Source of the DNA: Croceicoccus pelagius
GTDB taxonomy: Bacteria; Pseudomonadota; Alphaproteobacteria; Sphingomonadales; Sphingomonadaceae
DNA length: 64,000 nucleotides
Assembly: GCF_001661915.1 (NCBI RefSeq)
Contig: NZ_LYWY01000009.1
Coordinates: 1-64,000, forward strand
Direction of reading: 5' to 3'
In this document: positions 14,996-20,275 of the stretch, in pieces
Numbering within the stretch: position 1 is the first letter of the stretch
Layout: each line of letters starts with the position of its first letter
The notes under the pieces: generated by a model
Told to the model about the DNA's origin: nothing
What the model saw: only the letters and a program-made list of their open reading frames with translations
The model's database searches: none
Made by a program: the position numbers and the translations under genes

Positions 14996-15757
14996 TCAGC
15001 GGATGAAGTAGCCCACGACTTTCCAGTCCGCGCCTTCCTTGCGCATGACGACCGTTTCGATCGCGGACGGCGCATTGGCGAAGGCAGAGGCAAATTCCAG
15101 CATTTCGTATTCGCCGTCCGGCGCATTGGGCAGCTTTTCGCGCGCAGTCGCCTTTACCAGCGTGCGAGACTGGATGTCGCCCAGCGGCGCGCGGACAGGC
15201 TTTGCCATTTCGGCCCAGCGTTCGGCCGTGACGCCTGCGTGAAACAGCTCTCCGGCTTCGTACCAGCTTTGCTCGTACTCGGCCGCGTCGGTGAGTTTCA
15301 GCCAGCTTCGCGCGGCGGCCTCGCCTTGCGATGCGACCTGCGGGACCGCCTCGGTCTTTTCGGGTTGCGCGCTACCTCCGGCGCCAACGCCGCCCAGAAC
15401 GGCAAGTGCGATGATGAGCGACATGATGAGCATTCCTCCAGCTAGCCACACGAGGGGCAAGCCCCGGCGGCGGCGTTCGACATGCCCTTGTTCTAGAATG
15501 CCGGCAGTAAGCGTCGCGCCCCTGATTTCTTCGGGTGCAAGATTTTTGAGTTCCTGCGCCTCCGCCTCACCCAAGATTCTTGCGGCCTCGCGGCTGCTCG
15601 TCACCCCGAGTTTCTGACGGGCATTGCGCAGCCTGTCGTTCACCGTGTGAACAGACAGGCCAAGTTCGGACGCAATGGACTTCGCCTCGTGACCGGCGAG
15701 AAGCATTCGCAGGGTTTCCTTTTCCCGCGAAGTCAGGCTCTCGGTCGGATCGGTCAT
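14996..15757 (-). CDS. Membrane-anchored LuxR-type HTH regulator with DUF4019 domain
   Basis: 253-residue protein in three parts: a LuxR/FixJ-type helix-turn-helix (residues 8-65, LTSREKETLRMLLAGHEAKSIA with SVHTVNDRLRNARQKLGV as recognition region), one transmembrane helix (about 103-125, LVWLAGGMLIMSLIIALAVL), and a C-terminal extracytoplasmic DUF4019 domain (about 145-253, ending DWKVVGYFIR). This layout suggests a one-component sensor that reads the periplasm and binds DNA from the membrane. Ribosome site AAAGGGGGG. Only 19 bp separate its start from the thrS stop on the same strand, so readthrough from thrS is possible. Confidence 0.85.
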   Translation of the reverse strand: MTDPTESLTSREKETLRMLLAGHEAKSIASELGLSVHTVNDRLRNARQKLGVTSSREAARILGEAEAQELKNLAPEEIRGATLTAGILEQGHVERRRRGLPLVWLAGGMLIMSLIIALAVLGGVGAGGSAQPEKTEAVPQVASQGEAAARSWLKLTDAAEYEQSWYEAGELFHAGVTAERWAEMAKPVRAPLGDIQSRTLVKATAREKLPNAPDGEYEMLEFASAFANAPSAIETVVMRKEGADWKVVGYFIR

Positions 15758-15776: not shown

Positions 15777-17774
15777 TTACCGAAGATCGGGCGCGCTGGC
15801 CTCGGTTTTCAGCATGGAGATCGCTTCATCGAGGGTCATCACCCTCTGGTGCTGCTGGCCCAGCGTGCGGACGGCAACGGTGCCTTCCTCGGCTTCGCGC
15901 ATGCCGACGACCAGCAGGTGCGGGACCTTGGCGTGGGAATGTTCGCGCACCTTGTAGTTGATCTTCTCGTTGCGAAGATCGCTTGTCACGCGGATTCCCA
16001 CGGCCTTCAGCTTCGCGACCACTTCGTTCGCATAGCCGTCGGCGTCTGACACGATGGTCGCGACCACAGCCTGAACCGGAGCCAGCCAAACCGGCAGGCG
16101 GCCTGCGAAGTGTTCGATCAGGATGCCGATGAAACGCTCGTAAGATCCGAAGATCGCGCGGTGCAGCATGACCGGACGGTGCTTGCTGCCATCCTCTCCC
16201 ACGTAAGTCGCGTCGAGGCGATCGGGCAGCACGCGGTCCGACTGGATCGTGCCGACCTGCCAGGTGCGGCCAATGGCATCGGTAAGGTGCCATTCGAGCT
16301 TGGGCGCATAGAACGCGCCTTCGCCGGGCAGTTCTTCCCAGCCGTATTCCTCGGTGGCCAAACCCGCCTCGCGAACCGCGTTGCGCAGTTCTTCCTCGGC
16401 CTTGTCCCAGTCGGCATCGCTGCCGAAACGCTTTTCGGGGCGCAACGCAAGCTTGATCGAGTAGGTGAAGCCGAAGTCCTTATAGACCCGGTCCGCCAGT
16501 TCGCAGAAGGCGCGGACTTCGGCGACGATCTGGTCCTCGCGGCAGAAGATGTGCGCGTCGTCCTGCGTAAACTGGCGTACGCGCATCAATCCGTGCAACG
16601 CGCCGTGCGGTTCGTTGCGGTGGCAGCAGCCGTTCTCATAGATGCGCAAAGGGAGGTCGCGGTACGACTTGATACCCTGGCGGAAGATCAGGACGTGCGC
16701 AGGGCAGTTCATCGGCTTCAGCGCCATCCAGTCGGCGTCATCCGACACGATGGGACCTTCGTCTTCCACGTTCGGCACTTCGTCGGGGATGACGAACATG
16801 TTCTCACGGTATTTGCCCCAGTGACCCGACTGCTCCCACTGGCGCGCGTCCATGACTTGCGGGGTCTTCACTTCGTGATAGCCGGCATTGTCGATGGCGC
16901 GGCGCATGTACGCTTCCAGCTCGCGCCAGATGACATAGCCGTGCGGGTGCCAAAATACGCTGCCGTGCGCCTCTTCCTGAAGGTGGAACAGGTCCATCTC
17001 GCGGCCCAGCTTGCGGTGGTCGCGCTTGGCGGCCTCTTCCAGCCGCGTCAGGTAGGCGTTGAGCTGTTTCTTGTTGAGCCATCCGGTGCCGTAAATGCGC
17101 GTCAACTGCGCGTTCTTCTGGTCGCCGCGCCAATAGGCCCCTGCAACGCGCATCAGTTTGAAGGCCTGCGGGTCCAGCTTGCCGGTCGATGGCAGGTGCG
17201 GACCGCGGCACATGTCGAGCCAGTCGTCGCCCGACCAATACACGGTCAGTTCCTCGCCCTCCGGCAGTTCGGCGGCCCACTCGGCCTTGAACGTTTCGCC
17301 TTCGGACAACCATTTGTCGATCAGCTGCTGGCGGGTCCAGACCTCGCGGCGCAGAGGCTTGTCGGCCTGAATGATCTCGCGCATCTTTTCCTCGATGGCG
17401 GGAAGATCGTCCATCGAGAACGGCTCGCGCGAAGACGGCGCCATCACGTCGTAATAGAAACCGTCGTCGGTCGCCGGGCCGAAGGTGATCTGCGTGCCGG
17501 GCCACAGGGCCTGCACCGCCTCTGCCAGGACGTGGGCATAGTCGTGGCGGGCGAGTTCAAGCGCCTCTTCCTCGTCGCGCGAAGTGACAAGAGCGAGCTG
17601 GGCATCACCCTTCAAGGGGCGCGAGAGGTCCACCAGTTCGCCGTCCACCCTGGCGGCGATGGCGGCCTTGGCAAGGCCGGGGCCGATCGCGGCGGCAACG
17701 TCCGCCGGGGTGGAGCCTGGCTCCATTTCGCGCACCGAACCGTCGGGCAGGCTGATCTTCAAGAGCTGGGTCAT
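15777..17774 (-). CDS. thrS: Threonyl-tRNA synthetase
   Basis: 665-residue class II synthetase that charges tRNA-Thr. There is an N-terminal TGS domain ([20 protein letters not shown]) and an editing domain with HxxxH ([12 protein letters not shown]). The catalytic core has the zinc Cys in [10 protein letters not shown], motif 2 around [23 protein letters not shown], and motif 3 near [22 protein letters not shown]. The anticodon-binding domain fills the C-terminus. The start at 17774 matches the family N-terminus and discards a 20-residue extension. The upstream region encodes a Thr-rich leader peptide and attenuator-like structures. Confidence 0.97.
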
Positions 17775-17837
17775 CGTCTCTTCGTCTCGAATTCGCATTA
17801 CGCGCGGCCATGGCACAAGGAGGCGCGCACGCAAAGA

Positions 17838-17990
17838 GGCGTCTGGGATAGGTTCGCCCGTCCGGGAAAAGGAGACGCCGCCCTTGCCCGAACCATGCGG
17901 GCGGCGGTGGCTTGCTGGCTAGCGCGCGACCGTCCGCCCGGAGGTAGTCCGGGTGGTGGTAGTCGTCGTGGTTGTCAGCTTCGTGGCCAT
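17838..17990 (-). promoter_or_regulatory. Probable thrS transcription attenuator
   Basis: Four complementary segments follow one another on the minus strand: 1, GGGCGG at 17939-17934 inside the leader ORF; 2, CGCCGCCC at 17906-17899; 3, GGGCGGCGTCT at 17883-17873; 4, AGACGCC at 17844-17838, followed by TCTTT. Segment 2 can pair with 1 or with 3 (8 bp perfect), and segment 3 can pair with 2 or with 4 (7 bp perfect, terminator-like). A ribosome stalled on the Thr codons would cover segment 1 and free 2 to pair with 3, preventing the 3-4 terminator. A ribosome reaching the stop codon would mask 2 and allow termination. The segments are seen; the switching is inference. Confidence 0.65.
17919..17990 (-). 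CDS. Threonine-rich leader peptide of thrS
   Basis: 23-codon ORF ending 145 bp before thrS. It reads Met-Ala-Thr-Lys-Leu, eight consecutive Thr (17975-17952, mixed ACA/ACC/ACG/ACT codons), Arg-Thr-Thr-Ser-Gly-Arg-Thr-Val-Ala-Arg, stop TAG. Twelve of 23 residues are Thr, matching the amino acid used by the downstream enzyme. The codon mix argues against a simple nucleotide repeat. No strong Shine-Dalgarno sequence is visible before the ATG. Confidence 0.7.
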   Translation of the reverse strand: MATKLTTTTTTTTRTTSGRTVAR

Positions 17991-18058
17991 GGCTGCGCGC
18001 CTAGCACGCGCGGACGCGCCTGTCATGCCTTTCGGATTACCCGGCGTGCCTTTTTGGC

Positions 18059-18475
18059 CTATTCCGGTGGGGCGGGCGGAGCCTTGCAGTTCGCGACGCA
18101 GCGCGAGCCCTGCCCGGGGCGAAAACCGCCGCTGACACGGATCGCACTGCCATTGGCGAGATCATAGGTTTCCGCGTCCGTCCCTTCGAGCGCATCGACA
18201 CCCGCGGGCACGGCATAGCCGCCGCTACTGCCACCACGGCGCGAAGGTGCGCGCGGGCGGACGGCGCGGGCCTGCCGTGTCGTGCTGATCGCACTGCTGG
18301 CGCGGTTGATGGAGCCGGTGATCGAGCGTCCGAGATTGCGCTGCGCAGAACCGGTCGCCTGCCCCGTGCCGCCAAGGATGAGCGCGCTTTCCGCCGCGTC
18401 CTGCGCCACCGCAGCACCGGGCACAAGCGCCAGAGCGCCGACAGCACCTGCCAAAAGAACCGTTTTCCTGATCAT
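18059..18475 (-). CDS. Secreted hypothetical protein
   Basis: 138-residue protein with a clear signal peptide (MIRKTVLLAGAVGALALVPG, cleavage after AVA). The mature part is Ser/Arg/Gly-rich with a single C-terminal CVANC pair that could form a disulfide and a Pro-rich end (APPAPPE). No domain recognised. The ATG at 18475 gives the signal peptide; the in-frame start at 18538 would bury it. It lies upstream of the thrS leader on the same strand. Confidence 0.65.
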   Translation of the reverse strand: MIRKTVLLAGAVGALALVPGAAVAQDAAESALILGGTGQATGSAQRNLGRSITGSINRASSAISTTRQARAVRPRAPSRRGGSSGGYAVPAGVDALEGTDAETYDLANGSAIRVSGGFRPGQGSRCVANCKAPPAPPE

Positions 18476-18599
18476 CCGACCCCCCTTTTCGCGCCGGAAG
18501 CGCGTTACCACGCAAGTATGATACGCCTCTTTTTCCAATCCGCAAAAATGGCGTCGGAAGAGTTTATCGATCGCACTATCTCAGGGGCTTTCCTGTTCG

Positions 18600-19128
18600 G
18601 CATGCCCCAAGGCGATCGTGCTGCCCGGTGCGGCAACGGCGGTCACCGCTCGCGGCCATCCGCATCGTCGACAGCTGCCTACACTGCGACCGGTGTGGCT
18701 ACTGTGCCAAGCACCTCTTCTCTGATGAGGAATTCTTCCTGAAGATGCCCGCCTGAAGAGGCCCGAAGGTCTCTACATCATAGAGGCCGCGCCGCTGCTT
18801 TGCGCCGGCATCGCGACGTTCTCGCCGCTGCGCAAGTTCGGCGTCACCGAGGGGAGTCGCATCGCGATGGTCGGCCATTGCGGGCTCTTGGCCACATGGC
18901 GGCCAATATCGCCTCGGCCATGGGCCGCACGTTTCGACAATCATCCTTACGCCCGACAAAGCGAAGGACCCGGACGAGCTGTCCGGAGATGTTTTCCTGC
19001 TCTCTTCCGACGAGGACGCGACGGACAAGGCCTCGAACGGTTTAGACGTCATCATCGAGACCTTGCCGGTCGATTACGACATTAACTCTTACTTGGCGCT
19101 GCAAATCCTGACTCGCGAAAAAAGAGGC
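18600..19128 (+). pseudogene. Decayed zinc-type alcohol dehydrogenase
   Basis: Conceptual translation across frames recovers MDR/cinnamyl-type alcohol dehydrogenase landmarks in the right order. The structural-zinc cysteines appear as VDSCLHCDRCGYC near 18680. After an in-frame stop (about 18752), EAAPLLCAGIATFSPLRKF follows near 18790. VTEGSRIAMVG leads to the Rossmann entry, then a frameshift to LGHMAANIASAMG near 18895, and another to LDVIIETLPVDYDINSYLAL near 19050-19100. At least one stop and two or more frameshifts, plus missing ends, make it non-functional. The catalytic-zinc N-terminal part is not recognisable. Confidence 0.7.
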
Positions 19129-19136
19129 AGGCAACG

Positions 19137-19170
19137 AAAAAGGGGCCGGAGTGATCCGGCCCCTTTCTCT
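19137..19170. terminator. Bidirectional terminator downstream of ompA-like gene
   Basis: A perfect 12-bp stem, AAAGGGGCCGGA / TCCGGCCCCTTT, with a GTGA loop. Read on the minus strand it follows the OmpA stop and ends in a T-run. Confidence 0.9.
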
Positions 19171-19198
19171 TGTTTCGTTTCCGAGTGATCGGAAAGAA

Positions 19199-20275
19199 TT
19201 ACATGCCCGAACCCGGACCGTACGTGATCTCCACGCGGCGGTTCTGGAGTTCGCGAACACCGTCGGCAGTCGGCACGCGCGGGTTGCTTTCACCGAAAGC
19301 TTCGCTCGTGATGGCCGATGCCGGGATGCTGCGGGCCGTGAGGTAGGACTGAACCGAGTCGTTACGACGCTCGGACAGGCCCATGTTGTACTGCACCGAA
19401 CCCGAACGGTCGGTATAGCCTGCGAGCATGATCGGAACGCTGTCGCAATCGGCGTAAGCCGCAACGGCGCTGTCGAGGATGCTTGCCGCCTCAGGGGTGA
19501 TTTCAGCCGAATCCCAGTCGAAGAACACGATGTACGGACCCGTGTTGCAGACCGCTGCCGGCGGCGGCGGCGGGGGCGGCGGGGGAGGCGGCGGCGGCGG
19601 CGGCGGGGGCGGCGGCGGGGGCGGCGGCGGCGGAGCCATGCCGAAGTTGTACGCCAGCGTCGCCATCAGCGAGTGCGAAGCGAAGTCGTAGTCAACGTCC
19701 TGGCCGCCAGCATCGATGACCGAGTTGTTGTCGGCGCGGAAGTAGCGATACTTCAGGCCGAGATCCCAGTTGTCCGAAAGCGGGGTGCGGACGCCGGCGA
19801 TTGCCTGCCATGCGAAGCCCGTGTCGGTATCGTCGATGTTGTAGCCGGTGGGTGCAGCAACCTGCAGCTTGGTACGGGCAACGCCGACACCGCCGCCGAC
19901 GAAGCCCTGGAGGCCGTCGTCGTCACCGAAGTCGAGCATGCCGTTGAGCATGAAGCTCAGCGCGCTGGTGCCGCCGTCGATGTCGTCTTCATACTGCATG
20001 CCGGCGCGAGTGATCTTGTCCTCGTTCGCACGACGATAGCTGCTTTCGGCTTCGAGACGGAACATGCCGAAGTCGTAACCGACCGCGCCACCGACGTCGT
20101 AACCGTAATCCGTGTTCAGTTCACCCGAGTTCTCGACGCCAGCGACATCAAGATCGATGTTCTCGACCTTGGTGACACCGCCATCAAGTTCGATGTACCA
20201 GGCATCATCGCGAGCCATCGCAGGTGCCGAGAGCACCGTCGAGGCAAGAGCGATGCCAACAATGGCTTTCCTCAT
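19199..20275 (-). CDS. OmpA-family outer membrane protein with polyproline linker
   Basis: 358-residue outer-membrane protein. It has a signal peptide (MRKAIVGIALASTVLSAPAMA), an eight-strand-type barrel (about residues 22-212, alternating aromatic/polar strands, ending LMATLAYNFGM), a linker of 25 consecutive prolines encoded by 19559-19633, and a peptidoglycan-binding OmpA domain (about 240-358). The conserved YTDRSGSVQYNMGLSERRNDSVQSYL block contains the DAP-binding Asp and Arg. It joins the outer membrane to the cell wall. The proline run should need EF-P for efficient translation. The gene is monocistronic with a strong terminator. Confidence 0.95.
   Translation of the reverse strand: MRKAIVGIALASTVLSAPAMARDDAWYIELDGGVTKVENIDLDVAGVENSGELNTDYGYDVGGAVGYDFGMFRLEAESSYRRANEDKITRAGMQYEDDIDGGTSALSFMLNGMLDFGDDDGLQGFVGGGVGVARTKLQVAAPTGYNIDDTDTGFAWQAIAGVRTPLSDNWDLGLKYRYFRADNNSVIDAGGQDVDYDFASHSLMATLAYNFGMAPPPPPPPPPPPPPPPPPPPPPPPPPAAVCNTGPYIVFFDWDSAEITPEAASILDSAVAAYADCDSVPIMLAGYTDRSGSVQYNMGLSERRNDSVQSYLTARSIPASAITSEAFGESNPRVPTADGVRELQNRRVEITYGPGSGM

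Follow-up and report, generated by a model that had tools for sequence, protein, structure and literature searches.

Many amino-acid operons are known to be controlled by leader-peptide switches. In the his operon leader of enteric bacteria, a run of regulatory codons is combined with an alternation of odd:even and even:odd helices, and the terminator forms by default when there is no translation. In Escherichia coli, thrS is controlled by an operator in its mRNA, which threonyl-tRNA synthetase (ThrRS) occupies to prevent translation; no leader peptide is involved. To our knowledge, leader-peptide switches have hardly been described for thrS.

The autoregulation of E. coli thrS is mentioned in PMC2965389. 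Among the synthetase genes, pheST and, in Streptomyces, trpS and leuS are known examples of leader-peptide attenuation (PMC1262725). In Streptomyces lividans, a Thr leader, thrL (MKRVRPFLETTPGFVPAR), was proposed upstream of thrS; it is described as leaderless and without a U-rich tail (PMC8079986). In Sinorhizobium meliloti, the trpL RNA starts at the leader ATG (PMC7298713). A search of the open-access literature found no report of a thrS leader in Alphaproteobacteria. Within that literature, the initial annotation of this DNA was right to suggest that threonine attenuation of thrS may not have been described before in this group, but a thrS leader peptide had already been proposed in S. lividans.

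A threonine-rich leader ORF upstream of thrS

The window, i.e. the whole stretch of 64,000 nucleotides of Croceicoccus pelagius DNA that was analysed, harbours thrS and a short upstream ORF:

15777-17774, minus strand: thrS, threonyl-tRNA synthetase, 665 aa
17919-17990, minus strand: leader peptide ORF, 23 codons, 12 of them Thr, kept in relatives
17952-17975, minus strand: Thr run, eight successive codons (ACA ACC ACG ACG ACT ACC ACC ACC)

ThrS matched TIGR00418 (643 bits, above the cut-off) and the Pfam domains TGS, tRNA_SAD, tRNA-synt_2b and HGTP_anticodon, and it is 97% identical to ThrS of the closest named relative, Croceicoccus sediminis. The gene 3' of the leader acts on the same amino acid as the leader codons. 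Direct reading of the minus strand gave ATG GCC ACG AAG CTG ACA ACC ACG ACG ACT ACC ACC ACC CGG ACT ACC TCC GGG CGG ACG GTC GCG CGC TAG, whose product is MATKLTTTTTTTTRTTSGRTVAR followed by the stop. The 23 codons, 12 Thr, eight consecutive Thr and four kinds of Thr codon that had been reported initially were all found again, and the distance from the leader stop to the thrS ATG (17774-17772), given then as 145 bp, measured 144 bp. A pattern of seven consecutive Thr codons had two overlapping matches in the 3.3 Mb genome, both inside this run, which is the only one of at least seven codons in the genome. As the pattern matches nowhere else, the Thr run is not due to chance. On the other side of thrS, positions 14996-15757 (minus strand) encode a LuxR-type helix-turn-helix fused to DUF4019 in one protein; an OmpA-like ORF at 19199-20275 (minus strand) encodes over 25 prolines in a row.

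Conservation of the leader in the family and the class

Sequences upstream of thrS were collected from 80 named GTDB genomes and from further genomes of the family (181 after duplicate removal), and a leader was scored as a short ORF at most 350 bp upstream of thrS in which a stretch of 8 codons includes 5 or more Thr. Such Thr-rich short ORFs were present in 74 of the 181 upstream sequences, compared to 1 of 1,810 Markov shuffles and 0 of 181 antisense sequences. The leader of a typical relative reads M..TTTTTTT(P/R)..RGRxVA before its stop and ends approximately 115-170 bp upstream of thrS. The leader part was 42, 45 or 48 nt long in all of the 46 aligned species, while the segments 3' of the leader varied by single bases; lengths changing by threes only within the leader support a coding constraint on the ORF and point to selection on its reading frame. 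On the ThrS tree, the leader was present in 15 of 15 rows of the Croceicoccus/Erythrobacteraceae clade and in several Novosphingobium, and it was scattered in Blastomonas, Sphingopyxis and Sphingomonas. This distribution needs 8 changes (21 with shuffled labels).

A covariance model of the element (R1) matched 24 of 81 sources among the family loci at E<0.001, each time upstream of thrS. When 289 genomes from the class were searched with strict filters, it matched only genomes of the same family. The sole other match near E 0.01 (L200) was considered as a second Thr attenuator and was rejected, as it sits in apparent coding sequence. Unrelated Thr leaders precede thrS in 3 of 60 upstream sequences from other alphaproteobacterial families (L210, L218 and L243, from three families), one of which (L218) has a classical terminator with a TTTTTT end. 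Judging from these sequences, thrS appears to have acquired a Thr leader on more than one occasion.

Alternative RNA helices downstream of the Thr run

The segments that can pair within and behind the leader are, in the order of transcription:

17949-17953, minus strand: segment A0, CCCGG, possible partner A
17934-17941, minus strand: segment A (segment 1 of the initial annotation), CCGGGCGG, inside the leader ORF, partner A0 or B
17898-17907, minus strand: segment B (initially 2), CCGCCGCCCG, partner A or C1
17881-17893, minus strand: segment C1, partner B or E
17873-17879, minus strand: segment C2 (initially 3), GGCGTCT, 5' arm of a terminator-type hairpin
17860-17872, minus strand: segment E, partner C1, putative antiterminator that traps C2 in its loop
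17838-17844, minus strand: segment D (initially 4), AGACGCC, 3' arm of the same terminator-type hairpin, with TCTTTG behind it

The pairings of the initial annotation are all present in the window: 1-2 (17940-17934 with 17904-17898, 7 bp), 2-3 (CGCCGCCC 17906-17899 with GGGCGGCG 17883-17876, 8 bp) and 3-4 (GGCGTCT 17879-17873 with AGACGCC 17844-17838, 7 bp), the last followed by TCTTT. A further pairing, C1:E (17893-17881 with 17872-17860), was absent from that annotation and is better conserved than 2-3. The possible helices are A0:A, A:B, B:C1, C1:E and C2:D. In the consensus, the order is Thr run, A0 (CCCCGG), A (CCGGGGGCGG, coding for RGR), stop codon, B (CCGCCGCCCGG), TTT, C1 (CGGGCGG), C2 (GGCGTC), E (CTCCCGAAACCG), D (GACGCC) and CTTC.

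Co-evolution was analysed in 77 species by pairing each segment with the partner from its own species or from another one (2,000 permutations). Own pairing was favoured for C1:E (z -14.2), C2:D (z -8.7), A:B (z -5.9) and A0:A (z -3.4); B:C1 is nearly invariant in sequence, which leaves the test little power (z -1.9). Six wrong pairings showed no comparable excess in the same test (z -1.7 to +2.3); the permutation does not fully remove relatedness, but the wrong pairings share the same relatedness. In alignment A1, 89.8% of the cells were paired in the terminator state, with 38 two-sided changes vs. 14.2 in shuffles, and 92.1% in the readthrough state, with 21 vs. 6.7. The compensatory changes in both states exceeded all 500 shuffles, and they affect 6 of the 9 pairs of C1:E and 4 of the 6 pairs of C2:D. 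A:B was paired in 93.5% of the cells with zero double changes. Mutually exclusive helices 3' of the codon run have been kept in evolution, and the check proposed initially, a Thr run with covarying alternative pairings across Sphingomonadales, gave a positive result (74 of 181 upstream sequences and the co-evolution of the helices).

The scheme itself had to be revised. In relatives, B:C1 and C2:D use separate bases and can coexist, and C1:E is incompatible with both. The three-segment model, in which 2-3 and 3-4 exclude each other, was rejected as the conserved scheme since B:C1 and C2:D share no bases in relatives; what stands of it is that alternative pairings are kept and covary. Going by the aligned sequences, the conserved scheme is a his-leader-like alternation between B:C1 plus C2:D (terminator-type) and A:B plus C1:E (readthrough), in which the putative antiterminator is the fifth segment, E, paired with C1 and set up by A:B.

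Predicted folding by ribosome position

The RNAs of 46 species were cut at D and folded with the ribosome-covered part hidden (means are given). When the ribosome edge was placed on the last Thr codon, C2:D had 0.26 bp and C1:E 6.0 bp. With the edge at the stop codon, C2:D had 4.4 bp and B:C1 6.0 bp, and 34 of the 46 species formed C2:D; with no ribosome, C2:D had 3.2 bp. Stalls early in the Thr run were predicted not to open the switch. The drifted Croceicoccus sequence of the window formed A:B (17940-17934/17904-17898) and C1:E (17893-17881/17872-17860) when stalled, and B:C1 and C2:D at the stop codon. The geometry therefore fits a switch that is opened by threonine shortage and closed by sufficiency. 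The nearest relative, C. sediminis (L003), showed only a weak switch in folding, and the fold of the window depends on the point at which the RNA is cut: once the tail is free to pair with GCAAGGG, C2:D becomes stable during stalling as well. Shuffling of E or A kept 3.35 and 3.76 bp, respectively, of the 4.12 bp difference. In these models the switch is only partly sequence-specific, and much of the effect of ribosome position comes from base composition. Consequently, covariation and not folding energy carries the argument, the folding being supportive but not decisive.

The predicted accessibility of the thrS start region was 0.44 at every ribosome position, and the hairpin just upstream of thrS was likewise unchanged. 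These predictions bear on the alternative that the leader ribosome changes the translation of thrS, directly or by reinitiation, instead of its transcription. The short distance of 144 bp between leader and thrS and the stable GC-rich hairpin just upstream of the thrS start would suit such control; a constant accessibility points away from a translational output, which we regard as improbable.

Candidate promoters P1 and P2

Two promoter-like elements, both absent from the initial annotation, flank the attenuator:

18002-18025, minus strand: P1, predicted leader promoter, TGAC (18025-18022) and GCTA (18005-18002), with conserved box spacing
17800-17836, minus strand: P2 or P-hairpin block, CTTTGCG-N-TTGTGCCATGG with a GC-rich inverted repeat

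Of the 66 relatives in which a box was found, 56 have the GCTA/CCTA-type box 13-16 nt ahead of the in-frame start that was scored, and some of the others use a start a few codons downstream. In most relatives TGAC/TGAA is present approximately 20 nt further upstream. Alphaproteobacterial sigma-70 promoters often lack the T at -7 (PMC8407463). From the conserved spacing of P1 we infer that transcription begins on the leader AUG itself or directly beside it.

The P2 block, which can also be written CTT-N15-TTGTGCCATGG, includes a promoter-like stretch (17836-17808) between the attenuator and thrS, and its spacing is gapless in most relatives. Its boxes agree with a -35/-10 pair that has a 17-bp spacer, and the block is present in two relatives where no leader was detected (L099 and L109); it may therefore be a second thrS promoter. 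As the arms of its inverted repeat co-evolve (z -5.7), the block may also be a hairpin or an operator, instead of or besides a promoter. The pattern is one of two matches in the genome, and the weight matrix scored 25.9 bits at this site and 15.3 at the next one in the window, so that P2 was rejected as a generic promoter motif and is thrS-specific; this specificity neither proves nor excludes a promoter. Starting downstream of 17919, transcription from P2 may bypass the leader and its attenuator for part of the thrS mRNA. In one relative (L020, approximately 2330-2500), the Thr leader TLTATTTRTIRGRGAVR and a P2-like hairpin are kept and most of the intervening segment is lost, a natural attenuator deletion.

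The conservation of a P2-like block beyond the leader could also mean that P2 alone drives thrS, with the leader expressed but irrelevant to it and the Thr run serving some other purpose. We consider this very unlikely, as the leader ORF and the attenuator helices are kept together, co-evolve and have thrS behind them in every locus examined. Still harder to sustain is control by a T-box or by an E. coli-like operator to which ThrRS binds. Both control thrS elsewhere. An E. coli-type operator has a loop resembling the tRNA-Thr anticodon, which ThrRS binds beside the ribosome-binding site; the loop of the P-hairpin is conserved and often has TGT, but the G of this TGT is only 75% conserved, neither system explains the Thr codons, and an Rfam scan of 16500-19200 with E up to 10 gave no T-box or Thr_leader match. 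The scan gave nothing relevant, only CsrC-like matches at a strong GC hairpin (19125-19200), which are below threshold, occur on both strands and lie in a structure resembling a bidirectional terminator.

The terminator-type hairpin and its possible output

The initial annotation had noted TCTTT behind the 3-4 pairing. The hairpin is well supported by co-evolution, but the tail is weak: the sequence behind C2:D has a mean of 2.9 T per 10 nt in relatives and 5 in the window, with no normal U-tract. Together with the 28-nt loop that C2:D has in the window, this T-poor tail makes it a poor intrinsic terminator. Termination at this place is therefore putative, and Rho or pausing may be involved.

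The same ribosome-sensing switch could have an output other than intrinsic termination at C2:D: termination by Rho, pausing of the polymerase or interference with P2, which overlaps the hairpin tail. In addition to the T-poor tail, this reading is favoured by the CTT behind D, which lies within the P2 block and is also present in the two relatives without a detected leader. By contrast, C2:D is among the best supported helices, and an unstructured Rho site would not need one. We judge a non-intrinsic output possible but rather unlikely. Less likely again is a leader-peptide switch whose terminator tail doubles as the -35 box of P2, where a polymerase halted at C2:D under threonine sufficiency would also gate initiation at P2, combining attenuation and promoter interference in one element.

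Proposed mechanism and significance

The element upstream of thrS is real and conserved, and it is probably a ribosome-mediated threonine attenuator. The ribosome-sensed threonine switch put forward in the initial annotation is the best reading of the conserved Thr run and the covarying alternative pairings, and we consider this explanation likely.

As the P1 transcript would begin on the leader AUG or directly beside it, the RNA that encodes the leader peptide is probably leaderless. With ample Thr-tRNA, the ribosome would reach the stop codon and cover A, so that B:C1 forms and C2 is free for D; the GC-rich C2:D hairpin would then end or halt transcription upstream of thrS. When charged tRNA-Thr is scarce, the ribosome would stall late in the Thr run, short of A, covering A0 and leaving A free. 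A:B would form, followed by C1:E, which would trap C2 in its loop, prevent C2:D and allow the RNA polymerase to read through into thrS. Without translation, C2:D would tend to form. P2 may provide basal thrS expression.

If this mechanism is correct, threonine and thrS join the synthetase genes under leader-peptide attenuation in Alphaproteobacteria. The element would also be an example of an attenuator whose likely terminator has no strong U-tract. As a compact family with more than 70 natural variants, it makes ribosome position, RNA switch and leaderless start testable together.

Comparison with known systems

The thrS element resembles the his leader in its codon run, in the alternation of helices and in a terminator that would be the default without translation. 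It differs in its target, an aminoacyl-tRNA synthetase gene, in having no strong U-tract and in its putative antiterminator, as C1:E would enclose C2, an arm of the terminator-type hairpin, in its loop without pairing with it. The operator of E. coli thrS likewise exerts feedback control on thrS, but by binding of ThrRS to the mRNA and a block of translation, with no leader peptide; the attenuator would be a third route to thrS control beside this operator and the T-box of Firmicutes.

The S. lividans thrL shares a short leaderless Thr leader before thrS and a hairpin without a U-rich tract, whereas MKRVRPFLETTPGFVPAR has two Thr, compared to a run of 5-9 here, belongs to a different phylum and comes without a description of alternative structures in the available part of the source (PMC8079986). 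The gammaproteobacterial pheST attenuator (cited in PMC1262725) is similar in being a leader-peptide attenuator of an aminoacyl-tRNA synthetase gene, and differs in amino acid, bacterial group and sequence. The S. meliloti trpL (PMC7298713) is, like the thrS element, an alphaproteobacterial attenuator with a leaderless RNA (a predicted feature here), but it senses Trp and controls a biosynthetic gene.
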